Below, piece after piece: positions 27,184 to 56,812 of a DNA stretch of 64,000 nt; position 1 is the stretch's first letter; each line of letters begins with the position of its first letter. Origin of the DNA: Filobasidium wieringae (taxonomy: Eukaryota > Basidiomycota > Tremellomycetes > Filobasidiales > Filobasidiaceae); contig BCIV01000024.1 of assembly GCA_001600055.1 (NCBI GenBank), positions 1 to 64,000 of the forward strand. The letters are read 5' to 3'. Below the pieces are notes generated by a model, which was not told the DNA's origin, made no database searches, and saw only the letters and a list, made by a program, of their open reading frames with translations. The position numbers were made by a program, and so were the translations under genes.

Positions 27184-27221
27184 GCCCGATGAGCTCCGTT
27201 GGTAGAGCAGTCGACTCTTAA
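27184..27221 (+). tRNA. tRNA-Lys (CUU), 5' half, interrupted in the anticodon loop
   Basis: Positions 27184-27190 give acceptor strand GCCCGAT, followed by a D-arm GCTC...GTTGGTA...GAGC (27193-27208), anticodon-stem strand GTCGA (27210-27214) and loop C-TCTTAA with anticodon CTT at 27217-27219. The tRNA-like sequence stops after TCTTAA: the following bases TACATT do not pair back and no T-arm follows. The missing half is found at 56772-56812, where the 3' acceptor strand ATTGGGC pairs with GCCCGAT over all seven positions (one G-U). Confidence 0.8.
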
Positions 27222-27280
27222 TACATTAGTGTTTGATTGGTCGCATCAATATCTGAAATGGACTCGAGCCTTGGACGCCA

Positions 27281-27365
27281 ACTGGCGTCTAGACGCGCTA
27301 GACGTGTGCCAGCCCCACGACTACTACTGGCGTCTGGACGTGTGCCAGCCCCATGACTACTACTG
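27281..27365. repeat. Left subterminal tandem repeat
   Basis: Two imperfect copies in tandem, both starting ACTGGCGTCT and sharing GACGTGTGCCAGCCCCA followed by GACTACTACT; the first copy has an extra CTAGACGCG segment. It lies about 60-145 bases inside the proposed left end. The CGTCTAGACG words match those in arrays near 53.6 kb and 56.3 kb. Confidence 0.6.
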
Positions 27366-27699
27366 TACATCGTGAAACAACTCTATAGTATGCGCGTCGA
27401 CTCCGATGTAGATCACGTGGACATCCCCGCGCGGAAAACTGACGCGACCTCATCGCGCCAAAAACCCTCTATCTAGACATACCATTTCCATACAGGTAGA
27501 TATCTGATATTTCCATGATTAACATACAGGTCGATATAGTTAGACATTTTAGACATCACCAGATCACCACCTGCCACTCGTCAATTTACCATTCCACCCA
27601 AGCCGGAGGTCTCATAGTACAGACTCTAGACGTGAGTTCCGAAAGTCTAGCCGTCCAGATTCTCGCGCCGTCGGCTTTCTAGAATTTCTAGCCAATCAT

Positions 27700-27733
27700 G
27701 TAATTGTTGAACAAAATCTCGTTCAACAATTAC
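27700..27733. repeat. Perfect 13-bp hairpin
   Basis: GTAATTGTTGAAC (27700-27712), an 8-base loop, then GTTCAACAATTAC (27721-27733). A second pair, CCAATCA at 27692-27698 and TGATTGG at 27748-27754, widens the symmetry. It sits 200 bases before the dioxygenase gene. The role is unknown; a regulatory site or the relic of a small inverted-repeat element are both possible. Confidence 0.6.
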
Positions 27734-28571
27734 CGCGTCGCGCTTTCTGATTGGTCGGGCCGTCACGTCTAGCACAACCTCCTCCAGCTCTTCCTCTGTC
27801 AATTCGAGAGACCAATCACCCCCCAAAGACCGCTTTCACCCGCCTCTTACTTGAGCGACTGATCAACCCCAGCAAATACCAACTTCCCTCGCCGACCTAT
27901 CACCTCCTATGGGCCGTCAACGACCTATTCGCCCTCGTATGCACGCCGGTCTATCCATGCTGAACAGCAATGACCCGAACATACGCCCTTGTTCCCACCT
28001 GAATTCTGGCGCATCCATATCGATTGGCAATAATCTTAACGCTGGTGCTGGTCCATCAACGGCTCAACCGCCCAATGTATTACTCCCCGATCTCACTGAT
28101 CCCACAGCAACGACACAGTTCACCCAAAACATACATCGCTATGGCTATGATGATATACATGCCTTATTGCGAGAAGCTGTTATGTCATACACACAACGTT
28201 CGGAGTACACCATCACCCTATTCATGTTGCTGAAACAAAATCGCTTGCTCGATGTGGAAGATTTGCGCAAACAACACCCCACCCTTCTGGATATAATCGA
28301 GGGACTCGAAAAAGATTACAACAGGAATCATGCATACCGTTGTTATGTCGGGATCACAATTGCCTGGGGCGTGAACTGGCCGTCCAAGTTTGGCATCTCC
28401 ATCCGGAACGACATTCCCAAACACAGAACATTCCTTCGTGCTGTATTCCATACGTCTAAACTCGTACCAAATCTGGAAGAAGCGGTCGACTTGGTCAAGG
28501 ATACCCACCGGCACCGCGTAGGTCTAGGAAGTCAGGCCCAAAGGCTCTGTACACGATCGACTTCAACAAGG

Positions 28572-28970
28572 TGTCACGGGGTGCACGTTCAACTTTAGTC
28601 AATTACGGTTCGGTACGTTTTCGGTCGGTTCAGGTCGGTTCGAAAATCGTCCGTAAGGATTCTCTCGCAGTTCGTTCGTTCGGTTCTAAGTCAAACTAGC
28701 ACGCTAATGTAATGACCTTGCTCAACTAGCCGTAGCTAACCAATTATTATCGGTAAATTGATATTTTATATCGTCGCTTGAGTTCCCACTCAAGCCGTCT
28801 CATAACCTATCTCGACATTCCTCGTTCAAATACTCTACGGCCCCCTACGGTACGAACCGGGCCCGTGNGCTTCAGTACCNTAGCGCGCCTGGGATNGGCG
28901 CTAGCCACTCAACGAATACGGCATGCGCTTTCTCCAGGTGCCGAGTACTCTCTATTGTCCTCCTGTGACA
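28572..28970 (-). repeat. 3' LTR of chromovirus 1
   Basis: 399 bp, starting TGTCACGGGG and ending CTGTGACA as written on the plus strand. It matches the other LTR at every readable base; the three undetermined bases here (28868, 28880, 28896) are C, A and T in the partner. Confidence 0.95.
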
Positions 28971-29209
28971 TTATGTCCCCCTCACGATGCTAATCGTCCC
29001 GATTAGCAAGATTCCCCTCCTTCTCCTTCCGTCCTTCCCGTTTGGTCGATTTCAAACGCGTTTCGGGTCCGAGGAGGTCCAAGCGCGCGTTCGTCCCGCG
29101 TTTCATCGTCTCCAAAGGCCCTTTGGATATGTTGTTGATCGTTTAGACCTTCCTTTCCTTTGTTCCTGGCTATGTCCTTCTCCAAGTAGCGATTCTTTGT
29201 GTTTGTTGT

Positions 29210-29288
29210 TGTACCCGCCATCTTTTGTTCTAGAAAGGTAATTATACTCCTGTACCCGCCATCTTTTGTTCTAGAAAGGTACTTATAC
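29210..29288. repeat. Duplicated 38-bp word upstream of the passenger gene
   Basis: TGTACCCGCCATCTTTTGTT plus CTAGAAAGGTA occurs at 29210 onward and again at 29251 onward, a 41-base period with about one mismatch. It lies 100-175 bases before the passenger ATG and may be part of its promoter. Confidence 0.6.
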
Positions 29289-29384
29289 CCTCCATCCGTA
29301 CTACTTCGTTCATCATCGTACTTCATCGTTTCTTTCCCCATCTTTCCCAACCTTAACGTATTCAACCTCCTTTCTTGCTTAACG

Positions 29385-30969
29385 ATGGCTCCTATCTGTA
29401 ACCACCCTAGACGTTCCCGTAAGTCCCATTTCCTCTCCTTTCCGTCTGTAATGGGTCGCTCATTCACTCCATAGAGCAAAACAGGCCGGAAAGCCCCCCC
29501 ACTCCCCTTTCCTCCGCTCTTTCGGATGCAGGGGATTCTCCCCTTCGCCCTTCTAACACTTCTGCCAACCCTTTCACCCCTCCTCACACCGAGCTAGCAA
29601 CTCGTTCAGAACTCCCTCAAACTCCTCTACGCCCTCTTGGCCGTCACGCGGGCAATCCGTTCGACCAGGAAGCGTTCGTTGTCAATCCTGGCCTCAATTT
29701 TATCCATCGTAACTTTGGGAACGTTCGAGCGGGAGAGGGTTTCGTCAACTGGCAAAATAATGCTGGTAGAGGTCGTCCAGAATTGGTAAGAGAGGATCCG
29801 GTTGCTCAGGGTCTGGGACGGGGCGCTCAACCTGACAGCGGGAGAGCGGAACTCCCTGAGTTCTTGAGAAGGGTCCCTGCCTATCGTTTGGGTTCTGAAC
29901 CCGACTCCGATATCTCCATGGGTCCACGAGATGGAGTTGTGGCATTTAATGGTACGTCTTGCTTCCTGTCCTCTCTTTCTCGCTTCTGATCGCTTCGTCT
30001 CATCAGCCCAACAGACTCGTAGGGCCGGTCGGGCCATGCGGAGGGACGCTAGGCATCGGGATGCCTTGATCGCTCGTAAATAGACTGTTCCCTTTTTCCT
30101 TTTCTCTTCTCATCTCTTCGTATCTCAGTCCAGAACGTTCCCGCGGCTGGTCCTGGTAAGTTTTAGTCTGCCGTAATCTTCCGTATCTTCCCGTACTCAT
30201 TCGTACTTCTCCGTAGCGGACTACCTCGAGCATTTCCCTGGCGCCTCTGGAGTTGCCCGCCGGGTCGCACAACCGGACATAGTTTACTATGCCAAGGGAA
30301 ACGTTCTCGGGCGTCCGGTGACCCCTGGAGTTGGTGCCAACATTGGCAAATTCGTACGTACATCTTCCTTTTCTTTTCCTTCGTCCACCGTTAACTTCTC
30401 CGTTTCCTTTCAGGTCCAGACGGGGAATAAGCAGGCGCGCCTGCATTTCACCATTGCCGCGGCCAAGGATCCCGGCTGCACTCTCTGTAGCAAGGAGCGA
30501 CAAAAGGGGAATACGATGGTCTTCGATCGATGTAAGGCCGTTAACAAGACTAATCACCCTCGGGGTACCCAGTCTTGTACGGAATGCCTCACTCGAGGAT
30601 CATCCACCTGCTCGTTGTTGAAGGAGTCGAGCATCGCCGCCGAGGTGTCCCGACAGACGACCGTAAGTACCCCTCCATACCAAAAAGTATTTTCCCGTAC
30701 TCATCCGTAATTCCTAGTTGGAGACCGCCGCCGCCCTCCAAGCCGTTGCGGAGATGAGCCCGAAAAAGAGTCCGGCGGGTAAGATCGCTGGCCGTGCTTC
30801 TCGGTCGACTCGTCGTTCGCTCGGCGAGAAAGGTCGCGACGACAAGGGGGACGCCTCTTCTGACGACTGGGATTCTTCTGACTCCGGGGTAGCTGAGCGT
30901 CCCCTAAAGCGTGTTCGTCGAGGGTCGCCCCCTCCTTCCCCTCCACCCGGTGCTGGCGCCGTCGTGTGA
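29385..30969 (+). CDS. Antisense seven-exon passenger gene of chromovirus 1, six-cysteine protein
   Basis: Exons by eye: 29385-29418, 29475-29951, 30007-30075, 30129-30155, 30217-30353, 30414-30662, 30718-30969. All six introns have GT-AG ends, the first four in phase 1 and the last two in phase 0; the exons sum to 1,245 bases, an unbroken 414-residue frame from MAPICNHPRRS to TGA 30967-30969. Exon 6 encodes a cysteine cluster C-x2-C-x14-C-x14-C-x2-C-x7-C (CTLCSKERQKG onward to TCSLL), like a Zn2Cys6 cluster with long loops. The C-terminus is basic and acidic (KRVRRGSPPPS). I do not recognise the family; a DNA- or RNA-binding protein is a guess. It runs opposite to gag-pol and converges with pol, 273 bases apart. 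Open splicing across seven exons argues for a selected gene. Confidence 0.75.
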
Positions 30970-31242
30970 TTCTTCTTTCCTCTCTCTTGTTTTGTATTGT
31001 TGTAACTACGGTCTTCTCCTACGCTCGTGTTTAAATACCGTATTGATTTTGCTTTGTCGTTGTCTCCTTCTTTCTTGTGTTGCGTCCTTCCTCTTCCCGT
31101 TCGCATTCGTACGGTTCCGTGAAGATCCGTAATTCTCCTTACCTTTCGACTGTTCTATCTCCTCCTTTGGCTTTTCATGGCTTCGTTCTTACCAGTACCG
31201 CTCAGTTGGATACTGAGTTTCTTGGATTACGCGCTGATCCTT

Positions 31243-34200
31243 TCAGTCCCTTGTCTTCTTGAGCGATGGTTCAAAGACCATCCTGGTCTTGATAGCCGGA
31301 GGCCGAGATAGAGGTCTAGGCCTTGTAGGGTTCAAAAGGTGATACTCTTCGATGCTTTCTTCTGCATCGATGTCCCCTTCCTTGATCCACTGAACCGCTT
31401 CGATTCCTTCATATCCTTTCCATAATACCTTGTATTCGAAAACCCCTTTTCTGCTCCTGCTAATCACGATCCTTTCGATCTCGTACTCGTCCTCTTCTTC
31501 TCCGCCTGGCACCGGGCCTGGCTCTATTGTCTGGGAAGGGATGACGCTTTCGTTGAACGGTTCGAGCTGAGTAATGTGGAAAACTGGATGCCTTTTTATG
31601 GTCGGGGGTAATTCTACCCGATATGTGAGCTCCCCTACCTTTTTGAGTACTTTCCACGGTCCCAATAACTTGTTCGCGAGCTTTGCTGTTTTCCTGTAAT
31701 CCCTCACAAAGTTTGCGTCCACGAGAACTCGATCCCCTACGGATACGACCCGTTCCGTACCTTGTCGTGCGTTGTAGTAGCTCGCCGTTCTCTCTCTTGC
31801 GACCTCGATCCACAGTTCCATTTCACGCCATAGTTCCTCCATGTACGATACGTTCCCCGCCGCTGCAATGGATAACACCCCTTCCCTTTCCGTATCTAGG
31901 TCGAAACGTGGATGATACCCCCTTGTCGCGAAGAAGGGCGTCAACTTTGTAGCGCTATGGACCGAGTTATTGTAAGTGAACTCTGCAAACGGCAGCAACT
32001 CGGCCCAATTGTCTTGTTCCCAGGCACAATATGTTCATAGGTACCCTTCCAGACTTTGATTTATCCTCTCGGTCTGCCCATCAGTCTGAGGGTGGTATGG
32101 GGTACTCATCCGAGTCTCGACCTTCAGTAACCGCAAGGTTTCCTTCCAAAATTTACTAACGAACAGCTTGCCTCTATCGCTTGTAATGGCGTCTGGTAAC
32201 CCCTTCTTACTGAATATATCCCTCCACATGACTTTCGCAAACTCCGTCGCCGTCATTGTTCCTTTTGTGGGAATAAAGCACGCTTCCTTGCTAAATCGGT
32301 CCGCCACCACGAGGATGGCATCGTATTCTCCCGAAAAGGGGAGTTGTTCTACGAAATCCATCAATATTTCACTCCAAGGCTTGGATCCGATCGGCAAACT
32401 TTTCAACATTCCGTATGGCTTGTGCCTCTTACTCTTTGTCCTCTGACACGTAGCACAGCCCGCCACATATTCCTCGCAAAACTTGATCATACCTGGCCAT
32501 GTATAATCCCTACTGACCAATTCGATCGTCTTGTCTCTGCCTGGATGGCCCGCCAATAGGCTGTCGTGCCTGGCTTCTAGGACCCTCCTCCAGGCCCCCC
32601 TCCAATCTGGGACCAGCAATCTCCCCTCGTCTCTCAAACCCCTTGTCTCGCTCCACGACAGTGCGGATCCGTCCGCAACCGTAAGATTTCGTTCCGGCCA
32701 GTTACTGAAGTAGACTTGGAAGCCCTTGTCCTCCCTGTATCCGTCCAAAACGTCTTCAAGGAAAGGTCTGTCCACCCCGTCCCCCTCAACTTCGTCCAAT
32801 AGGTCCTCCAACGCTCCCCGACATCCACGTGACTCCTTCTCCTCCACTTCCTCTTGGAATAATTCCTTTGGCAGAAGCGCTGTGAAATTGCCCGGGTTGA
32901 ACTCGTTCTCCTTCGTCGTCCCTCGGCCCGGATGGTAGTCCGGTCGCCTCGTCAAGGTATCCGGTTTCGTACCGCGCTTTCCCGACCGGTACCGTACGCC
33001 AAAGTTGAAATCCGCAAGTTCTTCTGCCCATCGAGCTTGTCTTCGGTTCAATTGCTTCTTCGTCTGGAAGTATTCTAGGTTCCTGTGATCCGTAATGACT
33101 TCTATTTTGTGACGGTTCCCGACCAAGCTCGGCTTCCAATGCTTGAACGATTCCACAATAGCTAGCAGTTCCTTGTCGTGAACCGTATAATTGATCTCGG
33201 CATCCTTCAATTTCCTTGAGAAGAAACCCACCGGTCGGTAGATACTCTCTCCGTTCGGTTCTGGGAACCTTTGGCTGGCTACCGCTGCTATGGCGTAATC
33301 GCTAGCGTCCGTCTCGATCGTACAGATCAACTCCTCGTCGAATTGCCTCAACACTGGCGCTGACGTAAAAGCGCTCTTTAGTTCATTAAAGGCCTCGTGC
33401 TCTTTCGTCCCCCACTTCCATTCGGTTGACGTTCGTGATAGTCTCGACAGCGGACTAGCTACCCCTGAGAAGTTAAAAATGAAACGTCGATAGAAGTTAG
33501 CAAATCCTAGGAAACATTGTACTTCCTTCACGCATGTCGGAGAAGGCCACGCCCGGACGGATGCCAGCTTATCTTCATTCATCTCTACCGTCCCCTCTTG
33601 TACGGTGAACCCTAAAAACCCGATCTTGTTTCTCAAGAACTTGCACTTGCTCGGTTTGAGATATAACTGGGCCGTACGAATCCGTGCGAGAAAGGCCCTT
33701 ATCGTTTCTACATGCTCTTCTTGGGTATTACTGTTGACTAAAATATCATCGATATAAACAATAACTCCCTTGTCGACCAAATCGTGAAAAACCTCGTTCA
33801 TAAACCTTTGGAAGGTCGCTCCCGCATTGGACATCCCTTCTCGCATGACCTTGGATTGGAAGTTACCATATCTTGTCATGATTGTAGTCCACTTTTCATC
33901 TCCCTCTCTCATTCGTAAGAGTTGATAACTTGTTGGCATATCGAATTTGCTGAAGTATTTTGCCTTCCGTAACCTTTCCAATAACGTACTGATACGTGGT
34001 AGTGGGTAGGCGTCCTTCACCGTATGTCTATTTAATTCCCGGTAGTCGGTAACCATTCGGAAGTCGTCCTTTCCTTTCTTTGGTACTAAGAAAACGGGGC
34101 TTCCGAAACTATGATTTGATGGTTCGATGTGTCCCTTTCGTAAACTTTCGTCAATCCAATTTTTTAGCCATCGATCTTGTTCGTATGACAAAGGGTACAC

Positions 34201-35076
34201 CCTCCCTTTCCTAAGTGGTTCGGTAATGTTCAGATTCACTTGGTGGTCGTGGTCCCTCCTGTGCGGAGGAAGAGTCTCGTAATGGACACGCTTGAATAGA
34301 TCGAGGGAATCATGGAACTCGCTAGGTACAAGGGATTCCAATTCTTCCGTTTCCAACTCGTCCTCCTCCTCCTCTTCGGCGCGCCGGAGAGCCTCCAGAT
34401 ACGGGTCCGCACTGCCCGGTACGGACACGTCCTGAACCGTTCCCTTCTTTCCTTGAAGTTTGCTTGACCATCTTTTGACCGGTCTAAAAGCTTTCCTCAA
34501 GTCGCCAGGACCGATCACTCCAGGTCGCTTCCTTTGACCTTCCTGAGATTTGTATTCCAGGGTCATGTCGTTATAATCCAAGGAAATTCCGTGAGTTACG
34601 AAGAAATCCAGACCTAGAACGACATCATCCTCCAAGTCCATCACGGCCAACTCCACTTCCATGGGAGCGCTATTTCCCAATTTGATGGTAGTGAGGACAT
34701 AGTCCGTGATCAGGGCCTTTGAGTACGTTCCGTCGATCATTTTGAGTCGCCGTTTCTTCTCGTACCTTTCCGTACGGAACAGTCCGAGAAGGCCGCTCTT
34801 CCTATTGATTCCACTCTGGGACGTCCCATTATCAAGGATCAGCTTATGTTCCTTAAGTTGGCTCCCGATCTTCCCCTCGACAAAGTTGGCTCCGGACTTC
34901 AACGTGAACATGTTCACCCTTCCTTCCGAGATCCCTTTTCCCTCGATATTCAATGCGCGATCCGGTATCGGGTTTACCGGACCGCTCAGTCTTTTTCCTG
35001 CTCCTCCCCGGAGCTGACTTCCTCTACCCCGGCTGCCTTGCCCTGGAAGATAGTTTTCTGTTCCCTTTCCTTTCAT
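31243..35076 (-). pseudogene. pol: Chromovirus 1 pol polyprotein, one in-frame stop
   Basis: Protease, reverse transcriptase, RNase H, integrase and chromodomain in Ty3/gypsy order. The frame starts at an ATG (complement of 35074-35076) that overlaps the gag stop. Protease has LILDNGTSQSG, with DNG in place of the usual DSG/DTG. RT has KKGKDDFRMVTDYRELN and the active site VYIDDILVNS. RNase H begins TIETDASDYAIAAV. The integrase zinc finger is H-x-G-H-P-G-R-D-K with C-x2-C in CATCQRTK, and the core has LMDFVEQLP, TSDRG and HPQTDGQTERINQ. The chromodomain reads YEIERIVISRSRKG...YKVLWKGY. One TGA at 32035-32037 interrupts integrase after LEGYL, where relatives have Arg; CGA to TGA is the simplest cause. 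The stop after FEPSLKKTRD is at 31243. Confidence 0.9.
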
Positions 35077-36257
35077 TCTTTCCTGACTGGGCAGTCCCGG
35101 CCTATGTGACCAACCTGGTGACATTCGTAGCACTTGCCTAGCCTCCTATAATCGGAAGTGTCCTTCGCCTCGGGGTTTGTACCAGAAGCCTTCGTTGCTT
35201 CTGTTTTAAACGTGGTAATGCTCGTACTAATGTTCCTTTCTACGGGACCGTACGATTTCGTACTATCCCGTGCGGTCAGGTTGTTCCGATTGAAAACCAG
35301 TTGTCTTCGTGCACCTTCTCGTACGTTGTCGAAACGAATGACCCACTGTTTCCAACGATCGAACGTACTGGGTGCTCCCATGTGGTGCTTGACCGCAATA
35401 AACAAGTCAGGTTTCAACCCATTCTCGGCGAAGTTGATCAATGCTTGGTTATCGTATCCGATGTATGGAGCGTAGATTGAGAACTTAGACAAATAGTCGG
35501 AAGCCCTTCCGGTCTGTTTCAGCTTGTCTAGTTGACTCCTGGCTTCGTCTCCCTCATCCTCGACTGGCCACTGTTCCTTCATTGCTCGTGCGAAAAGGTT
35601 GAAGTCGTAAAAGAAGGCAGGTTTCGCTCCTTTTGGGAGTTCTAAATAAGGTCGCGACCATAAGGACGCCTCCCCCTTGAGCCGGGATATAGCGAATAAA
35701 ACCTTAAATTGGTCCAATTTGAACCGCCTAGGCTGTAGCTTGTAGAAAAGCCTACAAGCTGTCAGGAACTCGTCGATCTTCTTACTATCACCTGTGAAAG
35801 CGTCCGAACCGGACGCTTTCATATCCCTCTCATTCATATCGTCGTCCTCCTCCGCCCTCATCGGTGCGGAACCGTACGGGTCCGTAACTGGGATTGCGAA
35901 CGGGTCGTTGGCCCCGTACATGGTCCGGGGAATGGTTGGTTCACAACTTCCCACTCTGTCCCTTATCGGCAAGGCACTGCCTAACCCGTCTTGTCTTCCG
36001 CTAGCTTCCAGTAACTTGTGGAGTCGAGCGATCTCGCTCCTCAACCTTAGGACCTCCAGTTCTTTCCTAAGATCTTCTCGTTCGTCCGAAGTTTCCGTTC
36101 TGGTAATAGGCGTCTCAGAATGTCCCGCCTGTAGTTTGACCGCTCCTGCGGTCCCGTGTTCTTGGTCGTTCATTTCGGTATCCGGGGATGACAGCGAGTC
36201 GTCCCCCTGGTCCTCTCGTTCGTTCATGGGCGGTTGGGTTCGCGTCCTGGGGCCCAT
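35073..36257 (-). CDS. gag: Chromovirus 1 gag
   Basis: Capsid/nucleocapsid protein. The first in-frame ATG within the internal region (complement of 36255-36257) gives MGPRTRTQPPMNERED. The capsid-like part includes FKVLFAISRLKGEASLWSRP and WPVEDEGDEARSQLDKL, typical of Ty3-type gag. The end carries a CCHC knuckle, C-Y-E-C-H-Q-V-G-H-I-G-R-D-C, followed by PVRKE and TGA. The open frame extends upstream into the LTR, but that start would be outside the expected transcript body. Confidence 0.9.
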   Translation of the reverse strand: MGPRTRTQPPMNEREDQGDDSLSSPDTEMNDQEHGTAGAVKLQAGHSETPITRTETSDEREDLRKELEVLRLRSEIARLHKLLEASGRQDGLGSALPIRDRVGSCEPTIPRTMYGANDPFAIPVTDPYGSAPMRAEEDDDMNERDMKASGSDAFTGDSKKIDEFLTACRLFYKLQPRRFKLDQFKVLFAISRLKGEASLWSRPYLELPKGAKPAFFYDFNLFARAMKEQWPVEDEGDEARSQLDKLKQTGRASDYLSKFSIYAPYIGYDNQALINFAENGLKPDLFIAVKHHMGAPSTFDRWKQWVIRFDNVREGARRQLVFNRNNLTARDSTKSYGPVERNISTSITTFKTEATKASGTNPEAKDTSDYRRLGKCYECHQVGHIGRDCPVRKE

Positions 36258-36277
36258 TTTTAAAAGCGACGATATAC

Positions 36278-36676
36278 TGTCACGGGGTGCACGTTCAACT
36301 TTAGTCAATTACGGTTCGGTACGTTTTCGGTCGGTTCAGGTCGGTTCGAAAATCGTCCGTAAGGATTCTCTCGCAGTTCGTTCGTTCGGTTCTAAGTCAA
36401 ACTAGCACGCTAATGTAATGACCTTGCTCAACTAGCCGTAGCTAACCAATTATTATCGGTAAATTGATATTTTATATCGTCGCTTGAGTTCCCACTCAAG
36501 CCGTCTCATAACCTATCTCGACATTCCTCGTTCAAATACTCTACGGCCCCCTACGGTACGAACCGGGCCCGTGCGCTTCAGTACCATAGCGCGCCTGGGA
36601 TTGGCGCTAGCCACTCAACGAATACGGCATGCGCTTTCTCCAGGTGCCGAGTACTCTCTATTGTCCTCCTGTGACA
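36278..36676 (-). repeat. 5' LTR of chromovirus 1
   Basis: 399 bp, same ends as the partner LTR and no clear difference from it outside that copy's undetermined bases. Element transcription would start here and run leftward. The near-identity implies a recent insertion. Confidence 0.95.
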
Positions 36677-38015
36677 CAAGGTCAATGCAGACATTGTGGC
36701 ATCGTACGAGGTCGTGACCCCGACCACATCTAACCGTAAGAGAAAAAGGGCCGAGGCGTCCAACGAGTTGTCCAACGACGAGCCGTCCAATGACGAGGCG
36801 TCCAACGACGAGTCGTCCAATAACGAGGCGTCCAACGACCAGCCGTCCCACGACGAGGCGTCCAACGAGAACAGGTCCGAGTGCGAGACGGCTAACGGGA
36901 CTTTCAACGAGACAGATGTCGACGACTTGTGGCCCCTTTGTGACGACAAGGGGTCCATTGTCCAGACTACCGATGATGGGACGATCATTACCATCCCGCT
37001 CTCCTTACTGGAGATCCAGGCGGCTCGGGCGCCAACCACCCAATCGTCAGATCCCTGCGCCAGTACCTGCGTCAAGACGCAAGCATGTACCTGCGATTCT
37101 TGGAGGCGCAAGCTGGCCTCTTGGGACACGGCTGTGCAGTCACTGGATACCATTCGTGGCAATGTCCTGATCGTATCGAGTGACGGAGAGATCTTGGCAC
37201 AGAAGTTGTCAGGGGCCCTGAGCAATGCCGACAACCTCCACGAACGGTTTCAACAACTCCGTAGCACCTGGGTCAACAAGAGGGTGAACAAGGCGGGTAA
37301 CGTGGTATCAAACTCCTTGCCTCAACCCTACAGAGGCGATCGCCGCCATCATGACGCCGACGCAATGGCGCACAGGTATGGCAAAGACAAGTGCGGTGTC
37401 TTCCACTTTGCCTGGTGGGTACCCCGCGGCCAAAAGAGGAAGGGTCCTGTCATGTCCCAGGACTTTGGCCAAGGTTACCGAAGAGAAGCGGTGATGAACT
37501 TTCTCCACAGTACAGACACGTTTCAACGAGTCGCTGCCGAGATCCTCCAATCGGAACAACCAGAATTATGGCAGAGGTATGCCGAAGTTATGAGGCTTGC
37601 GCGTTCAAAGCACTGGTCTCTATCCGCTCTAGGACCTGACGCTCTCTTTTTCGGCATGGCCCTTGTGCACAACCTTCGAGTACTGCCTCACAGAGACAGC
37701 GGGGACGATCCATTAGGATTCGTTGCAATGACCCCTCTTGGAAAGTTCACCGGGGGCGACCTGGTAGTAGGCTATGAAGGGGGACAAATGCATCGTCTGG
37801 AGTATCAGCCAGGGGATGTGATCCTGTTCCAATCGGCGATCATCCAGCATGCCATTGGATCCTTTCAAGGTGACCGCACGGCACTCGTGCTGTTCTCCCA
37901 CAAGGACGTGCTGGAATCAGACTGGGAGCCCTGGATCCCTGAGACAGTCGAGTGTGCCGAAGAGGATGTAGGGGATGATCGTCTCCGTTACTATTTCAAA
38001 TACCGCGGAGAATGA

Positions 38016-42810: not shown

Positions 42811-42946
42811 GTGGTGAAGACGATGAGGTGTTGAGCAACACAGTTGGTAAGAAATCCCGCTTCCTGGAAACGAAACGAACTACGTACGACGAACACGACG
42901 CTTACAACGCTACGCTTTCCGCTTTGGGTAATAGTGAAAATTTTTG

Positions 42947-47300: not shown

Positions 47301-48303
47301 CGTGCTGCTAAGCCTGAGAAGGAGGTGGTACTGGAACGGCATGCGCAAAGACGTCACAAACGCCATCGAAAACTGCCCGAGATGCTGCCAATTCGGCACA
47401 AGGTTACAACGCCTACTACTGAAGCCTATTACACGATTCTCACCGTTCGAGATGATAGCCATGGACTATCTGTTCATGCCTGCAGGAGCGGGGGGCCACA
47501 ACCTCATCCTGGTGATCATCGACGTATTCACAAGGTATATCTTCGCTCGCTCGTACAAAGGAGCCCCAACATCCGAAAAATCAATCAAAGCGCTGGAAGA
47601 ATTCGAGACAACCTTCGTAACGCCTCGGTGCCTGATGGTAGACAACCAATTCGATACCAAGGACATCAGGGCGTGGTGCAATACTAGGGGGACCGCAATG
47701 GAAGTCTGCGCGCCGTACGACCACGTAGGACTGGCGGAGAACGCCAACCACCTGGTGCTGGAGAGACTACGGCGACTATGCAACCTTGACATCCAACACA
47801 TGCCGCGCCTAACACAACCAACGGTACCAAAGAGTTGGGTTGGAGAGTTGCCAAACAGCGTGTCAATCCTAAACAGTAGATCGCTGAAGTACTTAGGCGG
47901 GTTCTCACCAAAGGACCTCCTGTTCGGGCCGATCCCAAGCGCCATCAGCAAGGACCGGATTGACGCAACAGCTAGGATCCTGATCTTACTGGGTACAAGA
48001 GCAGACGCCGGTGCGGCTTTCGAGGAGGAGCAAATGAAGCGACGCCGAGAATCAAAGGTATGGGTGGGATACGAACCAGAAATCGGGGACTTAGTACTGG
48101 TATACAACCCGGTGGACGATCGAACATACCAAACCGGAGCGAAGCTCAAGGCCAAATGGCAGGGACCATTCAAGGTAGTCGAGAGGAGAAGGTATGCGGT
48201 GAAGGTGGAGACGTTGGACGGGCAGCCGAGGGAGGGATGGATAGGTGGACATCGGGTGAAAGAGTGGAAGGTCGGAAGGTTTGGAGATGAGTTGAGGGAC
48301 TGA
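44284..48303 (+). pseudogene. pol: Retrotransposon 2 pol polyprotein, one in-frame stop
   Basis: Open in the -1 frame relative to gag from 44284, overlapping gag by 67 bases, so it is probably made by frameshifting. Protease motif is GTMDSGACVNAMD (near 44720). One TGA at 44833-44835 follows SVADG, inside protease; the frame then continues unbroken. RT contains CHNFGQLNRATQ, LPMGPTGSPGTYQ and SDWMDDLFTSGN, so the usual (Y/F)xDD is W-M-D-D. RNase H starts IATDASINGLGAHLS. Integrase has H-x4-H (HQKTHLGRD), C-x2-C (CPRCCQF), MDYLFMP, MVDNQFDT and LAENANHLVLERL. The end has the WQGPFKV module and no chromodomain. It stops at TGA 48301-48303. Confidence 0.88.
44323..44366 (+). promoter_or_regulatory. 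Predicted -1 ribosomal frameshift signal between gag and pol
   Basis: GGGAAAC lies at 44323-44329, read in the gag frame as gcG GGA AAC, exactly the X-XXY-YYZ arrangement of a canonical -1 slippery site. After an 11-base spacer, CGACCTC (44341-44347) can pair with GGGGTCG (44360-44366) around a 12-base loop, with an alternative six-pair stem starting six bases after the heptamer. The pol frame is -1 relative to gag and is open here, while gag stops at 44350. Confidence 0.75.
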
Positions 48304-48390
48304 AAACGTCCGTTCGGAGCTGACAACATCGACAAATAGCCCGAATTTTTTTTTAGATCATAGTTTAGAACATCGAAGAGGGGATGGGAG

Positions 48391-48502
48391 TGCGCGCGCT
48401 CGCGTACACATCATCAGTCAGACTTCATCCCTTCACTTGTACACATCTGTAGTTTAGATCATCATCATCTGTGTTCTCTCATCTCCTGCTGCATTCCTGT
48501 TT
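48391..48502 (+). repeat. 3' LTR of retrotransposon 2
   Basis: 112 bp, partner of 42699-42810, preceded by a purine tract and followed by the GACGT duplication. Confidence 0.9.
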
Positions 48503-48567
48503 GACGTAGATCACTACTTGCTATTTGATACATATTGATACGTATAATGTTGAGTAGCATTCTATTC

Positions 48568-49635
48568 TCAGGGAATACGCGCCGCTTCCATAAGCTCTTT
48601 GAGCTTGTCGAACCCGCCTCCGTCTTCCTTCCACGCCAAAATCACAATATGTCGGCTATCGGCTGTCTATTTGGTGGTAGTGGGTATCAGCTGTTGTGTG
48701 GCCAGGGTGAAAGCGAAGAAAGACGACTGTCTCACCTTGGAGTCTAGTTCGGCGCAAATCTGCTCCACTTTGGTAGTGGCCATCTTCATCTGAACCCAAT
48801 CTCCAGGGTTGTTCTGCACAACCTAGGTAGCAGCCGTAGTAGCAGTGTCCCCTGATCCTTCAAAGCCAAACAACGCTGAGGAACACTCACTATCAACGCA
48901 GCGGCCGCCAGATCCCTTTCAGCTTTCGCCTGATCCGCCAAAGCTGACTGGTTGTTTTCCATGTAACTGTATATAATAGTTTTCAGGCACCTTCTATAAC
49001 AAGGTCAAGTATAGTCACTTACGTCAAAGTACGAGTCCCCAATACGGTTTCAGACTTCATAGCCTTGACAAGAGAATCCGTCTGCTTCATGCGTGCAGTT
49101 TCGAGAACACGGCCAATTTCCTGGGAGGAGGAGGAGGAAAGTCAGTTCGGTATATAGGGGCTCTGAGGACAGGCAGTTACGGTACTTACTGCATTCGTCC
49201 AGCGGCCTGATAAGTATCGCTGATGGTGTCCAGTCAGGATGAGCTTCACATCCTCCTGCATGGTTTCGATGTTGACCGCATCAACATCCGCATCCTTTTT
49301 CTTGCCCTTCTTCGTCTTCGGAGGTGCCTTGTCCGGCACGACATCCAAGTCAGAGTCAGACGTCTCCGATTGAACCACCTTGCGTTTCGACTTCCCAGTG
49401 CCACGGGCATTCGCCTGACAGGCAGCCCTGGAAATTGTCTTGTTCGCGGCGGCCTTGAGAAGTTTCTGTTTGGATGGGAAAACATTATATCATTGTGCTT
49501 CAAACATCGGACACGAATGCTGTGACTTACCTGCTTCTTCAGTAAAGCGACGGCATCTCCGTCCTCCACAAACGTCGTATCTTCGTCATCAACTTCAATG
49601 GCATCCTTCCTCTTCGTTCCTCTAGGCCCGGTCAT
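48568..49635 (-). CDS. Unrecognised coiled-coil protein divergent from the recombinase
   Basis: Start is the complement of CAT at 49633-49635 (MTGPRGTKRKDAIEVDDED). Spliced exons then read KLLKAAANKTISRAACQANA, a basic Lys-rich patch (PKTKKGKKKD), QEDVKLILTGHHQRYLSGRW, EIGRVLETARMKQTDSLVKA, ENNQSALADQAKAERDLAAA, NPGDWVQMKMATTKVEQICA and finally ILAWKEDGGGFDKLKELMEA-ARIP with TGA at 48568-48570. About five short GT-AG introns are needed. The protein has about 250 residues, is highly charged and helical, likely nuclear because of the Lys-rich segments. I do not recognise a family. It is head-to-head with the recombinase gene, 255 bases apart, so the two may be co-expressed; an accessory role in movement is conceivable but only inferred. 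Confidence 0.65.
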
Positions 49636-49890
49636 TACGCTGTTATGATATCTAGGAAGGGAGGGAGAGAGGGGTGCTGAGTAGCAAGTGTCCAGGAATA
49701 TGGACTGGCCTTTCGATCAGAGCTCACTTACATCTCTTACGAGGAGGGCTACCGTGTGGGGCTGGGGTTGAACTTAACAGATGGTAAACGTAATGAATAT
49801 GGAAGATCGAAATGTGATCGATGTGACATATATAAGGTATGAACGACCTTATATACGGACGTAGTCGTCTAGTCGTCCAGTCAGCTAAGC
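49636..49890. promoter_or_regulatory. Shared divergent promoter of the recombinase and its neighbour
   Basis: 255 bases between two divergent starts. It contains the words GTAGTCGTCTAGTCGTCCAG near 49861-49880, again rich in CGTCTA, matching the repeats near the ends of the proposed element. Confidence 0.45.
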
Positions 49891-52800
49891 ATGCCGGAAG
49901 CAACCTTTGAAGCGTGGTGTCGAAAGGAAGCGCCACGGACGTGAAACTGCGCTAACGGATCTATCTCAGGGTAAAACTTGTCGCGTCTGCAAGAGCCAGA
50001 GGGGCGTGTCCTTCAATTCAGGTGTATCTGCTATATTACATCCTCGCAGTGAGCCCATAACTACTGACCCTCGACATCGAGATCATCGACATGTCGCAAT
50101 CAGACCCCCCCAATCCTCCCAAGAGGAACCCACGGGGTTCGACTTTGACCAGGGTGAAGACGTCGTGATGACTTTCATCATTCCTGAAGCATCAAAAAGG
50201 AAAAGGACCTCATTCAAGGACGTTTCTGATAGGCTTGCTAGATCTGACCTGTCAGTGGAAGAGGTCCTTGCTGAGATGGTCCTGCACTGTCTCATCCTGT
50301 GGCCAGTCGCAGATTCCCGAGAAGGTCGGCTGAATGTGTAAGCGACCGGTATCGAGACGTCAAGTGATCGAACGTTGTATTGAAACGTACTTCTGTTTGT
50401 CTAGAGTTTTGACCGACTGGATCGAATTTGTGGACAACTTCCAGCCACAAAGGGTTGGGAAGGTCCTCGTGAACGACGAAGGTGCGTCCGTCGTGTTATG
50501 TTTTATGAACTAGAGGCAGACATGCTAAATCAATTGCCTTTCGTAGGGTTGATCGATAGCGTACACAAGTTCATCCAGGCTCGTCTGTTGAAATCTGAGC
50601 AACCTGCTACTGAGCGAGAGAAAGCCGAATACATCCAAAACAAAAGGGCGTACACTGAAGAGAAAGTCACTGAAAAGAAAACCACTGACAAGGAGGCAGA
50701 GATGGAGGATGTCAACCTTGACCAGTTTGAGGCGGATGAGATCTCGACAGTGTTTATGGCTTATGGGACACTCGAAACTTTACGTTGGGACATTATTTGT
50801 GTGTTGAAGCACTCAGCAGTCCCTCGATTGGACATTCAACAGATGAAGGACCTCACTAGTCGGACAAGGACACAAATTTCCAATTTGTGTAAACAACATC
50901 ACCTTCGTCGAAACACAATGAAAAACCTGGTCTTCTCAATTCCTGAAATGCGTAAGCTTCCGGAATCGAACATGGACGAACCACTTTCGTGAGTCCCACG
51001 CTTGTGATTCCAAAGCATATTAATACAAGACTCATCTTATTATAAACCGTAGTTACGATCAAGCTATCCAGGACAATCTCCAGGCGTTGATCTATATGAC
51101 CACCATGGCTCGTCCTGGCTCATTGCTTTGCGACAAATTCTACCCAGAAAACTATCTCTGTTGGCGTCACGTTCGAGTGTTCCAACGATTCGACGAGGCG
51201 GGCAAGTTGCTGGGCTTTGATGCTCGAATCAAACTCGTTCACTTGAAAGGTCACCAGACCACCTCTACGCTCGAACTTGAGTTCTCCATCCGTACTGTAT
51301 CCCAAGCCAAGAGCTTGATATTTGATGTGCCATCCTGGTTGATCGCACACGCTGTCCGTAACGGTATACTCAAATATAGCCACGTGTTTTCGGAGACCGA
51401 TAAACATCCGGAAATCAAGATCGACAGCAAGTTCCAGCATCTTCCCGTCTTCTTTGGGAGAACCCGTTCGAAGTTGGTTTTAACCAAGCCATTGACCTAT
51501 GAAACGAGTAGGGTAAGGTTTCGCAAGAACGCCATCAATGCAGGTGAGCCATGGCTGGGGTAGATCATCCTGTTCAAGGACATCTACCTGACTCCCGGCA
51601 CACTGTTCTGTAAAGGTCTATGCGTCGCAGGCCAGAGAGTGACATCTTATGGGATAAGAAAAGGAACTGCAACCCGCATGGCCAATGTCAAAGACCTGGG
51701 TTACGATCGAGTTCGCCGCCTAATGGGACATCAGACAAACACCAGCACATTGGAACAGTGCTACGATTCTTCATTGATCAGTTGGGATATCTCTCATGGA
51801 GCGCTCGACGATGGAGTGAGCATGGGTGTAGATCTGTACGACCATCCTTACCAAATGGCCGATATTCGAAGAGGCAAGGTGATGACGCTGAAGGACGTGA
51901 TCAAGATGGATCCAGAAATGTGCGTCTGGGCCAAACACATCGAGATCCTCCGAATTTGCCTTCGTACCGGTGATAACGTTTATAACCAACTGAACGCTTA
52001 TCGTACGAAGCATCTCGCTCAAAGCGACATCCCACTTGAAATTGCCCGGCTATTGAAGCTCGTCAAGTACCGCACTCGCACGTTGAAAGAGATGACATTC
52101 TGTGAAGCTGGGGAATTAGAAGCTGCGCTAGACCACTTCCAAGTTTTGAAGAACTACGAGGACAATGTGCACACCGATTCTCCTCTTCCTGAAAAGCTTC
52201 GTTTGAGGTTTGAACATATCGAGCGTCAAATCATCATGAGAAACGACCTCGATCTCCCCGATGTTCCGATCGCTTTGGAGGTCGAATGTGAGGAGTTTCT
52301 CGACGATGAGGACGAGAGTGAAGTGATGCCTACAGGAGCTCGATCATTGGACGTTGCAGATCCGGATGATTTGGACGTTGCAGATCCGGATGATTTGGAC
52401 GAAGACGATGAGGATGCCGAGAATGCCGAGAATGGAAATGATGTCGAGAATTGGCAACCACTTACGGAACCGACTGGACCGTCTGATGATGTCATTCCGG
52501 CTGGAAATGACATCGCTCACACAAGCTCTGAACCTGTTCATGCGATGGCGTTCTCTTTGCGCTCATCAACTCACAGCGCAGCTCAAAAGGCCGGCCTCAG
52601 AGCCATTGAGCAACTAGCTTCCTTCAAGATCGCTAATGTGAAGCGTCTTTGTCGAATCAAAGAAGGGATTAGTGTAGTCCTGGATGGTGATGGGGATCGA
52701 GATCATTCTGTGCAGGGTGTTCGGATGTCAACTTGTGACCTCTGTGTAAAGGAAGGTTTGGCAGATACTCAAGTGCCAACGGTGATGATGTACAGGCACC

Positions 52801-53245
52801 AGAAGGAAACATCCTTCCATTCCCCTCAAATGCGATTTCATCGATTTGTGAGTTTCAGAAAGGATACCAGCTCCCTGTAGTGTCGCTCATTGTGTTATCC
52901 TGCTGCCAGTGTGATCCTGATGGCACATTCACTTGCACTATTTGCAACAAGATTCATAGACGATACGGTGACTTGGAGAAACATGTTCGGCAGAAACATA
53001 AGGACCAAATTCCGCAGCAGCATGCTCTGGTCGTCAAGGTGCTTGATGGTTATTCACCAACAGATCAGGAAAAACGAGACGCTGGTTGGGAAAATGATAG
53101 ATATGTCGGCAAGAACGACGACCTCAACCCACCTATGAAGTCTGTCACTTCCCTTGACTCCAACCAGGTCAAGGCGATTCGCATGGCGTACTTGGCCCTC
53201 GAGGAGGAAGAACAGATGAAAGACTGGGGCGTTTCCGGACTGTGA
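49891..53245 (+). CDS. DUF3435-like tyrosine recombinase with C-terminal C2H2 finger
   Basis: Candidate mobility enzyme ('captain'). The 5' end is unresolved: ATG 49891 (MPEATFEAW) is the upstream limit; clear coding starts near 50130 (GFDFDQGEDVVMTF). Following exons read VLTDWIEFVDNFQPQRVG and KFIQARLLKSEQPA, then the catalytic region: Arg I in MARPGSLL (codon 51111), Lys in HLKGH, Arg II in SYGIRKGTATRMAN (codon 51656, a Y-x2-R variant of H-x-x-R), LMGHQTN (His 51729) and Tyr in LEQCYDSS (codon 51762). This R...R...H...Y series and its wording fit DUF3435/Crypton-type recombinases. Downstream is an acidic repeat (LDVADPDD twice) and, after an intron at about 52846-52909, a C2H2 finger: C-T-I-C-x12-H-V-R-Q-K-H. 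It ends DWGVSGL at 53245. No in-frame stop breaks the long exons. Confidence 0.78.
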
Positions 53246-53895
53246 TTTGATATGAACCTTAGCAAATTGACGATAATTCTAATGGATACGCTGAAGGTCG
53301 TCGGCAGTTTAGATGTACTTCGCGGCCACAATCAGGCAGACATACGTTTTGTAATCATGACATCTACTTTACGAGTCGAGAAAGTGGGAGTAGCAGGTGT
53401 TTAGTACGTTTGATACGTCTAGTTGCCTAGTTGTTAGTTGTTTGTAGTTAGTAGTCCTACTACTACTGTGCTAACATGTGCCACTAGTACTATTACTAGT
53501 ACGCCCAAAATGACATGTAGATGAGATGTTTAACACCCGTCTAGCACCTATCTACTCCGCGTCTGGTCGTATTAGACGCGCGTCTAGTCGCGACTAGTCG
53601 AACGTCTAATACGACCAGACGCGCCAGACGCGCGTCTATCAGAAAATATCACGATCATGATCATTTGGAAAGGCCAGGGTCGTACAAAATGCTTATGGAC
53701 TGATTTGGCTCAGAAGCCGTTTCCTGTAAAACTTGTACGTATTAAGTTCACTGATGTTGACAACTTGCGGCCTGTGTCTTCGATCTACCACCTGGTGCAG
53801 CTAGGAAACATATCAGTCGTTAAGAAATATCAATTTTGCTACATCGTCCAGTTCTTCAATTCCTCTTATCGTGTGCAATCCACGTCGAGCGAGCA
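53246..53895. other. Intergenic between convergent genes, with palindrome
   Basis: Between the recombinase stop and the stop of the next minus-strand gene. The main feature is the inverted repeat at 53558-53623. Around 53440-53510 there are runs of ACTACTACT/AGTACTA words. No gene is supported. Confidence 0.5.
53558..53623. repeat. Perfect 21-bp inverted repeat around a palindromic core
   Basis: The arms are 53558-53578 and 53603-53623 and are exact reverse complements, beginning CGCGTCTGGTCGTATTAGAC and ending the mirror way. The 24-base spacer contains the perfect 14-base palindrome CTAGTCGCGACTAG (53584-53597). TACGACCAGACG from the right arm recurs near 56325. Confidence 0.8.
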
Positions 53896-55891
53896 CTAGA
53901 CAGGATTCTGTTTGACCTGCTCGTTTGATTGCTTCCTCTTTAGCGGTCCCTGACGACTGATCCTCCAGGGATGTTCTTGAAACCAGGCAGTCTCTTCCAC
54001 TTGTTCGGGGGTCAGCCATATTTGGGAAGGAACAATTCTCAGAGCGTAATCGGGGTGGGCTACGTTATCAATAGGCATGCGGTTATATTGTATATGAAGA
54101 ATCTAGCAGTACTCGGACACGCACCAGCAAGCCATTTCGGATCAAACATCCAGGTCTGGGGAACTTCGTTCAGCTTGCGTAGATCAGATACCGGGTAAGG
54201 GACGGATTTCGAAGGTATGTAGCCAGGAGGCGGCTGATCGATCACAGGTCCTCGCTGAGTGGCTGGGAGAGAATGGTCATTGAGATTCCAGATGGATTCG
54301 AAGATTGCAATGTACTGTGTGGTATAAACGGTTCAGAAACATCCTCTCGGCTCCCAAAGAGGGCTGTGATATACTTACCTCAGAGCTGTACACTTCAATC
54401 AGATCGGACCAGTACCAGCTGAGTTTAGTGACATCTCCGTTTCCCTCAGCTTTGACTAGAGACAGGGGAGGCATCCAATATATGCTGTCGAAGTTAGAGA
54501 AGTTCCCGCCGGCCCAACTCGAAAATGGACGGCGAGCTGATGCCCAATTAACCATCTTCAATACAATAGTTTTCAACAGCGTGAAAAAGCTTGCCAAATT
54601 GGGAGTAACTTACAGCTGTCAGTTTGGATCTCACTCTGCTATTCTCGTCGTTTGATGAACTTTTTTCCAACCGCCTGTCATACGCATGCAACGTTTCCTT
54701 TGAGGTCAACAGACGTTTCAATACGCCCGACGAATGACCCTCATGCTGTAGTCGATCTTCGAGTCCTGCGATTTCCGACACCAAGCTTTGTCTGTAGCAA
54801 ACCAACTATCTAAGCATTGCCTATATGCATCCGCGTCCCCAATCATCGACTGACCTCTCCCTTTTACCCCATTCGCGTATGGTCTTGTCTTGACGGCCTT
54901 GAGTCAGTTGTCGGAAGTAAGTGTGGATGCTACGGTCGTATAGGTTTTGAAAAGCCGCATACGTCGGTGTGACATCCGTGGTGGGGTATTCCGGCATGGC
55001 TTCGGTACTCGTCTTGATGACATCTAAGAGAATTTGGGTGTGCAATAGATTGGACGGGGAAGAGAATGGTTCGGCAAGATTCCACGTCATGTCCAACAGC
55101 GAGCTGGCTGAGCGCACATGTTTGCTGATGTATTTCTGTACCGACTCAGTACCCTCCAGGCCAGAGATCGATGGTGTCGTGATGGAGGTATGATTGCTGC
55201 TGCCGGTGCCAGGTTGATGGATAAGATTGTTCAGCCTTGACTCCCATTGGACCATCCTGTTGTCATATTGGGATACCAAGGTTGTGAGGCGTGATATTTC
55301 GTCTTGCATGCCCTGAAGCTGTACCGCAGTGGTTTTACAAGGTGTACATGACTCCTGGAAGTGGCAAGCGTTTCGATATATCGGTGCGGAAGGGACTGAT
55401 AGAGCTGGAAAAGGCTCAATTGAGACGCGGGCTGGATTTTCGTGTTGCTGTGTATCTGCACAGCGAGTCGCAGAGAGGTGGCGAGACGCAGAAGGACAAG
55501 GTTGAGAGCCGCCCGGTTTCGAGACAGGGCGAGGGATGGTTGCGACGGTCGTCTCTGCGGTCCGGACAGAAACGACGTCTTGTGGCTGCAAGGACACATG
55601 AGGTAATCGAGGCCGGGTGGTCGGGGTTGATTTTTCAGCAGGTCGATTGAAAGGGACGGGTCCAGGCATGCCTGGCGCACATTGCGGCTCAAGAATACTC
55701 GCACGATGCGGTGCTGATGCTCGTTGTGAGATACCAGGGTACAGGACGCCGGACCTAGGACCGGGAGGATCACGGACGGGATTGGTATGACACGGTAGGG
55801 ACAGGGGGGACTGAATGCGGTGACTAGCCTGTGCAGACACTGTTCCCCTGGTCCCGGGAAGCCTGTTGTCCGATTGAGGATTGGGAGGCAT
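53896..55891 (-). CDS. Unrecognised five-exon protein at the right end of the element
   Basis: ATG is the complement of 55889-55891 (MPPNPQSDNRLPGTRG). Exon 1 is long, proline- and serine-rich, then has an H-x5-C-x2-C group (CHFQESCTPC) followed by a coiled coil (VQLQGMQDEISRLTTLVSQ). Splices, all GT-AG, join QSLVSEIAGLEDRLQHEGH, MVNWASARRPFSSWAGGNF, YIAIFESIWNLNDH...WMFDPKWLAGA and HPDYALRIVPSQIWLTPEQV...QNPV, stop TAG at 53896-53898. The frame is open throughout. The middle resembles no family I know. The acid/coiled-coil layout suggests a DNA-associated or regulatory protein, a guess only. It lies between the recombinase and the proposed right end, so it is either cargo or a partner of the recombinase. 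Confidence 0.65.
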
Positions 55892-56042
55892 AGGTAGAGT
55901 GAAATCCAATATTATTTTGCGGGATGTCTGGGATCCTCCGTACACAGGGATCTCCAGCTAAGCTGGCAAAAGGAGTGATTGGCGATAGGATTCGGTCGAT
56001 GAGCTCTTTGATTGGTTGGCGGTGCGTTTGAGAGAGAGATTG

Positions 56043-56045
<3 letters not shown>

Positions 56046-56135
<90 letters not shown>
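56046..56135. repeat. (AGT)30 microsatellite
   Basis: About 30 uninterrupted AGT units, 155-245 bases upstream of the preceding minus-strand gene's start. Open frames across it in all directions are artefacts of the repeat. Confidence 0.97.
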
Positions 56136-56224
56136 CGTGTTGTAGCGATATCGATATCAATTACTGTGCGCATCAAGATCAGTGTCATTTCCACCCAGGA
56201 GGAGGCGATCTGATATCTCCACCT

Positions 56225-56400
56225 ACGCTTGTGGCGTCTACGGGCCATCCGCTGGCACGCGGATGCGGTGCGTCTGCTAGGCGTCTACACGTTAGTAGAT
56301 GGATCAGTCTCCCGCTCGTACGACCAGACGTAGACGCGCGTCTACCGCTCGTTCGATCAGATGTAGACGAGCATAGCGTCGTCGCTTTCTCACGCGTGAA
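56225..56400. repeat. Right subterminal CGTCTA/TAGACG-rich array
   Basis: Contains GGCGTCTACGGG, GCGTCTGCTAGGCGTCTACAC, TACGACCAGACGTAGACGCG and GATGTAGACGAGC. It shares words with the 53.56-kb palindrome and the array at 27.3 kb, and ends about 370 bases before the proposed right end. The last 70 bases of the element have a further repeat, ATTGCATAAA doubled with GACATTGC (about 56708-56745). Confidence 0.6.
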
Positions 56401-56771
56401 CTCTTCACGCCCTTCCCGTCTGAAACGTTTGGCACCCCAGGCTCATGCTCCTTGCGATGCGGGATCCAGTCCAGTCCATAAGTAGTGGCGCATGTGTTGT
56501 GCATAGAGAGGATGTTCCAATCACCTTTTGACCTTTGTGTGATCCAAGACCGGAAGGATGTCTCGTCACGGTGGTCGTCGAGTAATCACTGACTAACACA
56601 ATTGTTACAGTCGCCTGTGTAACGACGTCCAGTTCTTCTTCCTGGACCAACGATCAAACAGCGACCGAACAATCAGTCGGCGATCAGTCGGCGCGCGCGC
56701 GGGACATCGGACATTGCGTCGACATTGCATAAATATTGCATAAACATCGCGAATGGGGTACGAGACCATGG

Positions 56772-56812
56772 TCTTAAGTTACAGGTCATGGGTTCGAGCC
56801 CCATATTGGGCT
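56772..56812 (+). tRNA. tRNA-Lys (CUU), 3' half
   Basis: Starts with TCTTAA (56772-56777), the same anticodon-loop bases that end the 5' half at 27221. Then GTTAC (positions 39-43), variable loop AGGTC, T-arm ATGGG-TTCGAGC-CCCAT (56788-56804), acceptor strand ATTGGGC (56805-56811) and discriminator T; a TTTCCCTTTT Pol III terminator follows. No D-arm or 5' acceptor lies upstream. The acceptor strand pairs with GCCCGAT of the 5' half. GTTAC pairs only in part with GTCGA of the 5' half, so the bases beside the core have changed or belong to the insertion. Confidence 0.8.

Follow-up and report, generated by a model that had tools for sequence, protein, structure and literature searches.

The window, by which we mean the whole stretch of 64,000 nucleotides under analysis (positions 1-64000 of contig C24 in an assembly of 19.76 Mb and 33 contigs), contains the two ends of a tRNA-Lys(CTT) gene, held apart by DNA that carries two Ty3/gypsy retrotransposons, a gene of the TET/JBP dioxygenase type and a gene that appears to encode a tyrosine recombinase (Table 1). 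A preliminary description had recognized same-strand halves of the tRNA gene at 27184-27221 and 56772-56812, and these are real, the 5' part starting at 27184 and the 3' part lying at 56782-56812. It had also taken them to belong to a single tRNA family, and indeed querying the genome with either half led to at least nine intact tRNA-Lys(CTT) genes (two on C1, five on C3, one on C4 and one on C13; the searches score best candidates only, so that the count is a lower bound). One class among them has 88 nt (GCCCGATG...GACTCTTA-ATACATTAGTGTTTA-ATCGGCAGGTC...GGGCT), and each of the nine has an intron after CTCTTA.

Table 1. Features of the interrupted tRNA-Lys locus (window coordinates)
Feature	Position	Strand	Remarks
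Upstream box	27166..27183	+	AAGCATCGCTTA in most; common to window locus and intact tRNA-Lys genes
tRNA-Lys piece 1	27184..27234	+	Gene nt 1-51, 5' exon and intron up to AGTGTTT; one mismatch
Direct repeat AGTGTTT, E1 left copy	27228..27234	+	7 bp
Insertion E1	27235..42670	.	15,436 bp; 7,326 bp without gypsy 1
E1 left end	27235..27261	+	24/27 bases in common with C13:306063-306089, same tRNA-Lys position
TET/JBP (PF12851) dioxygenase gene	27855..38015	+	Split by gypsy 1; model by eye
Ty3/gypsy retrotransposon 1 (chromodomain)	28572..36676	-	399-bp LTRs; target duplication CAAGG
Split gene, hAT-transposase-like by eye only	38588..42290	-	
Direct repeat AGTGTTT, E1 right copy	42671..42677	+	7 bp
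tRNA-Lys piece 2	42671..42694	+	Gene nt 45-68, AGTGTTTAACCGGCAGGGCATGGG; 22/24 identical
Direct repeat CAGGGCATGGG, E2 left copy	42684..42694	+	11 bp
Insertion E2	42695..56781	.	14,087 bp; 8,278 bp without gypsy 2
Ty3/gypsy retrotransposon 2, short LTRs	42699..48502	+	Target duplication GACGT, 42694-42698 and 48503-48507
Small ORF	49246..49716	-	Divergent from recombinase gene; weak DNA relative at C5:641382
Tyrosine-recombinase gene (putative)	50105..53245	+	Spliced by eye into six exons; 936 residues free of stops; start codon uncertain
Inverted repeat	53558..53623	.	33 bp (91%), with GACGC motifs, downstream of recombinase gene
378-aa ORF of unknown kind	54824..55957	-	
Direct repeat CAGGTCATGGG, E2 right copy	56782..56792	+	11 bp
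tRNA-Lys piece 3	56782..56812	+	Gene nt 58-88; 31/31 identical to canonical gene

Three Pieces That Tile a tRNA-Lys Gene

The gene had been described as split in its anticodon loop at a TCTTAA core. We reject this core as the site of insertion: the nine intact genes have their intron there, and in the left half, too, TCTTAA is followed by intron sequence, the match to the class being exact to 27234 and loose to 27240 (nt 52-57 read GATTGG where the class has AATCGG). The second TCTTAA, at 56772-56777, looks fortuitous, since the family has other sequence at that point. The partial pairing of the anticodon stem that had been remarked upon can indeed be seen, and has a simple cause: the bases GTTA lie outside the tRNA, whose sequence begins at the C of 56782. 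At its other end the gene is bounded as in the intact copies, with the conserved upstream box directly preceding 27184.

Comparison of the whole window with the nine intact genes confirmed a further piece, absent from the preliminary description, in the middle of the intervening DNA. This piece 2 departs from the gene at two positions; when shuffled cores were compared with the insert, 0 of 1000 matched with four or fewer mismatches and 3 of 1000 with five. A 20-mer taken from it, TTTAATCGGCAGGTCATGGG, has nine sites in the genome at up to three mismatches, namely eight intact tRNA-Lys genes and piece 2 itself, and the same pattern written backward, as a control, has one. The three pieces span nt 1-51 (loosely to 57), 45-68 and 58-88, and when each repeated portion is counted once they amount to 88 nt, the canonical length. 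Neither ARAGORN nor Rfam at gathering scores called a tRNA-Lys in the window, as expected of fragments, and Rfam found no tRNA in 26500-57500 even at E<=5, so the pieces are evidently too short for the model.

Where neighboring pieces overlap, they do so as direct repeats. The two copies of AGTGTTT are identical, and those of the 11-bp repeat agree at 10 of 11 positions (consensus CAGGKCATGGG). Because the two repeats differ and every base of the gene is accounted for, the most economical explanation of the locus is two adjacent insertions, E1 and E2, each of which would have left a short repeat behind. The GATTGG at nt 52-57 on the left could be decayed tRNA or element sequence; its presence at a second locus (see below) favors the latter.

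The Two Proposed Insertions and Their Genes

About 13.9 kb of the segment consists of two Ty3/gypsy retrotransposons, each flanked by matching 5-bp target duplications, which argues that the assembly is correct. The LTRs of gypsy 1 are identical at all 396 unambiguous sites of 399; one of them contains three Ns.

E1 carries a TET/JBP gene (PF12851; it scores 37.2 bits, the cut-off being 34.9), and by our gene model gypsy 1 appears to sit within one of its introns. Four further TET/JBP-like loci were seen in the genome (C10:329861, C8:665074, C5:437708 and C5:443851), the two on C5 falling below the Pfam cut-off. The split gene in the right part of E1 drew no support from Pfam, the PDB or the protein database for its resemblance to hAT transposases. 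The left and right ends of E1 are weakly alike, to a degree equaled by 1.5% of 5000 random pairs, or by 8% of random pairs when the corresponding end at the second locus is used, and we rejected the idea that E1 is a transposon with terminal inverted repeats since its ends are too weakly alike. The ends of E2 have no mutual likeness (39% of random pairs do as well). A single copy of E2 is known, and neither E1 nor E2 was found in full anywhere else in the genome, one of the searches being insensitive enough to have missed the C13 end described below.

Discounting gypsy 2, the recombinase gene of E2 begins about 1.6 kb from the left end and reads inward, with the small divergent ORF between. 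Its five introns are all of the GT-AG type and 62-72 nt long, and the G+C content by codon position is 0.57, 0.36 and 0.53. Short introns of this type, together with TET/JBP genes, point to a fungal genome, probably that of a basidiomycete. The product contains the motifs ARPGSL, LKGH, YGIR, MGH and CYDSS, which we take to be the R, K, YxxR, H and Y catalytic residues of tyrosine recombinases (an H/YxxR scheme); the set is kept in a relative at C4:897k. From these motifs the gene probably encodes a tyrosine recombinase. Near the C terminus is a C2H2-like finger, below the Pfam cut-off. No match to DUF3435, GCR1_C or phage integrase was obtained from Pfam at E<=1, where the protein gave just sub-threshold C2H2 fingers and unrelated weak matches. 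The preliminary description had linked it to the DUF3435 recombinases of Starships. This membership is not supported: PF11917 matched neither the spliced protein nor the pieces of its relatives at E<=1, and it also had no match in the genome, a result that is weak on its own as the control of that search was likewise silent. Among the best-word candidates of a protein collection (7992 for the 936-aa protein, 7998 for exon 5) there was no homologue at E<=0.01, and a PDB search with an alignment of three recombinases gave no match. The structure predicted for the catalytic region from the single sequence was uninformative (pLDDT 33) and lends no support from fold. Since no transposase is recognized in E2 besides gypsy 2, the recombinase is the sole candidate enzyme there. 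The inverted repeat downstream of the gene contains GACGC motifs, and AGACGC/GCGTCT is common around 27.3 and 56.3 kb as well; perhaps these are binding sites.

A Second Locus with the Left End of E1

At C13:305997-306089 we found a second tRNA-Lys 5' half, which carries GATTGGTCGCACCAATATCCGAGATGG at the position occupied by E1 in the window. The flanks upstream of the two 5' halves match in the conserved box only. The occurrence of the left end of E1 at the same tRNA-Lys site on C24 and C13 suggests that the element is site-specific, and elements of the E1 type probably choose that position, to judge from these two loci. Repeated use of one tRNA position was found for E1 only, and for its left end. 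We considered a SINE-like origin of the 5' halves and thought it unlikely, because the upstream box is present and, among the best candidates scored, only the two loci share the sequence that follows.

Beyond the shared end, the sequence on C13 resembles the right end of E2 (ATGGTGTACGAGAACA versus ATGGGGTACGAGACCA, 14 of 16), a likeness reached by 11 of 1000 shuffled sequences and by 5 of 2000 random 90-mers. If real, it would bring the left end of E1 and the right end of E2 together, favoring either a single element or an insertion into a short element that was there before. An intact tRNA-Lys gene starts 197 bp downstream of the start of the 5' half with the E1 end (C13:305997-306309).

Relatives of the Recombinase

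The genome holds relatives of the recombinase at C4:897k, C4:332k, C10:115k, C20:144k, C3:484k and C14:609k. The ORF at C4:897k ends 766 bp from an intact tRNA gene (Rfam, 40.9 bits), which we read as Asn (GTT) from intron-bearing relatives and which ARAGORN calls Leu or Ala. ARAGORN found no tRNA at C14 (40 kb covered), C10 (5.0 kb), C20 (4.2 kb) or C4:332k (4.0 kb), nor did Rfam in the stretches at C10, C20 and C4:332k. Leaving C3:484k aside, a tRNA gene thus stands beside one of five relatives, and four of five are free of tRNA in the stretch covered; with the window included, two of six recombinase loci have a tRNA or a piece of one nearby, which does not establish an enrichment.

A related tRNA 3'-half relic, together with its flank, occurs at C15:439408 and C4:892.9k (alignment score 64, null maximum 35). 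On C15 it lies directly behind an intact tRNA-Asn gene, and on C4 it is 6.7 kb away from the tRNA, past the recombinase gene. We considered C4:897k as a tRNA-Asn gene with its 3' half displaced by 6.7 kb. This was reduced to a lead, because the related relic on C15 stands behind a tRNA-Asn gene of its own and may therefore pre-date any insertion; C15 may be a paralogous empty site. The relative at C14:609174-610340 has a C2H2-like finger, but inspection by eye shows the second half of its catalytic set to be missing; it is perhaps a domesticated gene.

Discussion

The structure is genuine and out of the ordinary, and two insertions account for it better than one. We consider it probable that two neighboring insertions broke open a single tRNA-Lys(CTT) gene with an intron; of these, E2 would be a tyrosine-recombinase element and E1 an element with a preferred site and a TET/JBP gene. 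In the reaction of tyrosine recombinases, strands are exchanged within a short overlap that element and target have in common, and direct repeats result. E1 would have entered the intron, leaving the 7-bp AGTGTTT, and E2 the point where anticodon stem and variable loop meet, leaving the 11-bp CAGGKCATGGG. E2 most likely moved when strands were exchanged site-specifically between a core of its own and the corresponding tRNA bases, for which an overlap inside CAGGKCATGGG would fit; its recombinase gene is still open. The 7-bp repeat of E1 is compatible with a recombinase overlap and also with a 7-bp duplication made by a transposase, and E1 may owe its mobility to a recombinase, lost or related, or to a transposase of its own. 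Both Ty3/gypsy elements would have landed inside afterward. The sequence itself shows the three pieces, the repeats, the nested retroelements, the open recombinase gene and the left end of E1 at a second site; we infer that the repeats arose on insertion, and likewise the order of events and the pairing of enzymes with elements. The proposal of a recombinase-driven element in a tRNA gene survives in part: mobile DNA and an apparently intact recombinase gene are present, and the single 29.5-kb element gives way to three tRNA pieces and two types of repeat.

The two repeats might instead be target-site duplications made by ordinary transposases, the recombinase being a passenger or an old resident gene. 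E1, with its 7-bp repeat and TET/JBP gene, recalls the TET-carrying hAT elements of Puccinia (PMC12730594, as excerpted). A hAT-like gene is suspected in E1 by eye, a reading that lacks database support. Insertion at the same position of two tRNA-Lys genes, as seen in the window and on C13, would be unusual for hAT, and E2 has no recognized transposase except that of gypsy 2. We regard this origin of the repeats as rather unlikely. Quite unlikely, in our estimation, is a single 29.5-kb recombinase element that split the tRNA at nt 57/58 and whose own internal attachment-like sequence is the 24-bp piece. The left and right pieces would abut exactly at nt 57/58 if GATTGG were decayed tRNA, and C13 may join the left end of E1 to sequence like the right end of E2. 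However, GATTGG is common to C13 and hence looks like element sequence, a recombined attachment site should not survive intact in the middle of an element, and two distinct direct repeats follow naturally from two insertions only. That unrelated tRNA fragments were joined by misassembly or chance, as the three Ns in an LTR of gypsy 1 (an uncertain repeat) and the tRNA-Asn and tRNA-Lys relics elsewhere in the genome might lead one to suspect, is very improbable given that each retroelement is flanked left and right by the same target duplication and that three pieces tile one gene without a gap.

Returning to two insertions with a recombinase at work in E2, a parallel is found in bacteria and archaea, whose tRNA-targeting integrative elements have a tyrosine recombinase, insert in tRNA genes and pile up one behind another at a single gene; recombinase elements that insert at tRNA genes are a defining mark of genomic islands in prokaryotes. 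In contrast, the tRNA here is not restored, the host is eukaryotic and an intron lies at the site. The locus hints that fungal recombinase elements can aim at tRNA genes. It is possible, and we suggest it tentatively, that a fungal family of tyrosine-recombinase elements outside DUF3435 and GCR1_C inserts at specific sites within tRNA genes and is able to form tandem arrays at a single gene, like the islands at bacterial tRNA loci. If so, the family would allow a direct test of whether the same tRNA target was adopted convergently, and a fungal recombinase element aimed at tRNA could serve as a ready integration tool. Both the role of the recombinase at this locus and the novelty of the case are our inference. 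Eukaryotic tRNA genes are known targets of retrotransposons (PMC5006619, as excerpted); our search, which covered part of the literature, found no fungal recombinase element aimed at tRNA, and the available portions of PMC13373834 and PMC12810828 do not mention tRNA insertion.

With no match to DUF3435 or GCR1_C, membership of the recombinase in the Starships or CryptonF is unsupported. Cryptons were first found in Cryptococcus neoformans (excerpts of PMC3212892 and PMC7175516); like E2, the CryptonF elements consist of DNA that carries a tyrosine-recombinase gene, have short direct repeats and lack clear inverted repeats. They differ in target, that of E2 being a tRNA gene, in the terminal direct repeats (4 or 6 bp in CryptonF; 11 bp, 10/11, in E2), in the HxxR of CryptonF where E2 has YxxR, and in the GCR1_C domain of CryptonF, none being found in the E2 recombinase at E<=1, which has a sub-threshold C2H2 finger instead. 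Starships have direct repeats of 2-12 bp and some target 5S rRNA genes (PMC12153272, in the portion available; their structure is also treated in PMC12289983, likewise in part). E2 is Starship-like in its direct repeats and perhaps, gypsy 2 discounted, in having its recombinase gene near one end, with the small divergent ORF between gene and end; it is unlike a Starship in the lack of a DUF3435 signal, its small size (about 8 kb) and its little cargo. Nor were terminal inverted repeats seen in E2, its ends being no better than random pairs; such repeats occur in 18 of 20 Starships and are not strictly required (same portion of PMC12153272). Nor would a basidiomycete Starship have been new, as was once thought for this locus, as eight are reported in Tremella fuciformis (PMC13066641, as excerpted). 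Dada transposons insert in tRNA genes close to the anticodon and produce duplications of 6 or 7 bp (excerpts of PMC8869645), and TET-carrying hAT elements of Puccinia make 7-bp duplications (PMC12730594, whose main text has no term for Cryptons or tyrosine recombinases). The locus shares with Dada the insertion in the anticodon region and, in E1, the 7-bp repeat, and E1 shares with TET-carrying hAT7 elements the TET/JBP gene; no matching transposase was confirmed, and there are no clear inverted repeats.

Finally, we note two tRNA-Asn-like loci in the genome. At C3:831646-831986 a tRNA-Asn-like 5' half precedes an intact copy, their starts being 241 bp apart, in the arrangement seen on C13 for tRNA-Lys. 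In a tRNA-Asn-like gene at C6:976351-976440, 21 bp stand in place of the intron and of the 3' side of the anticodon stem, and this could be a scar.
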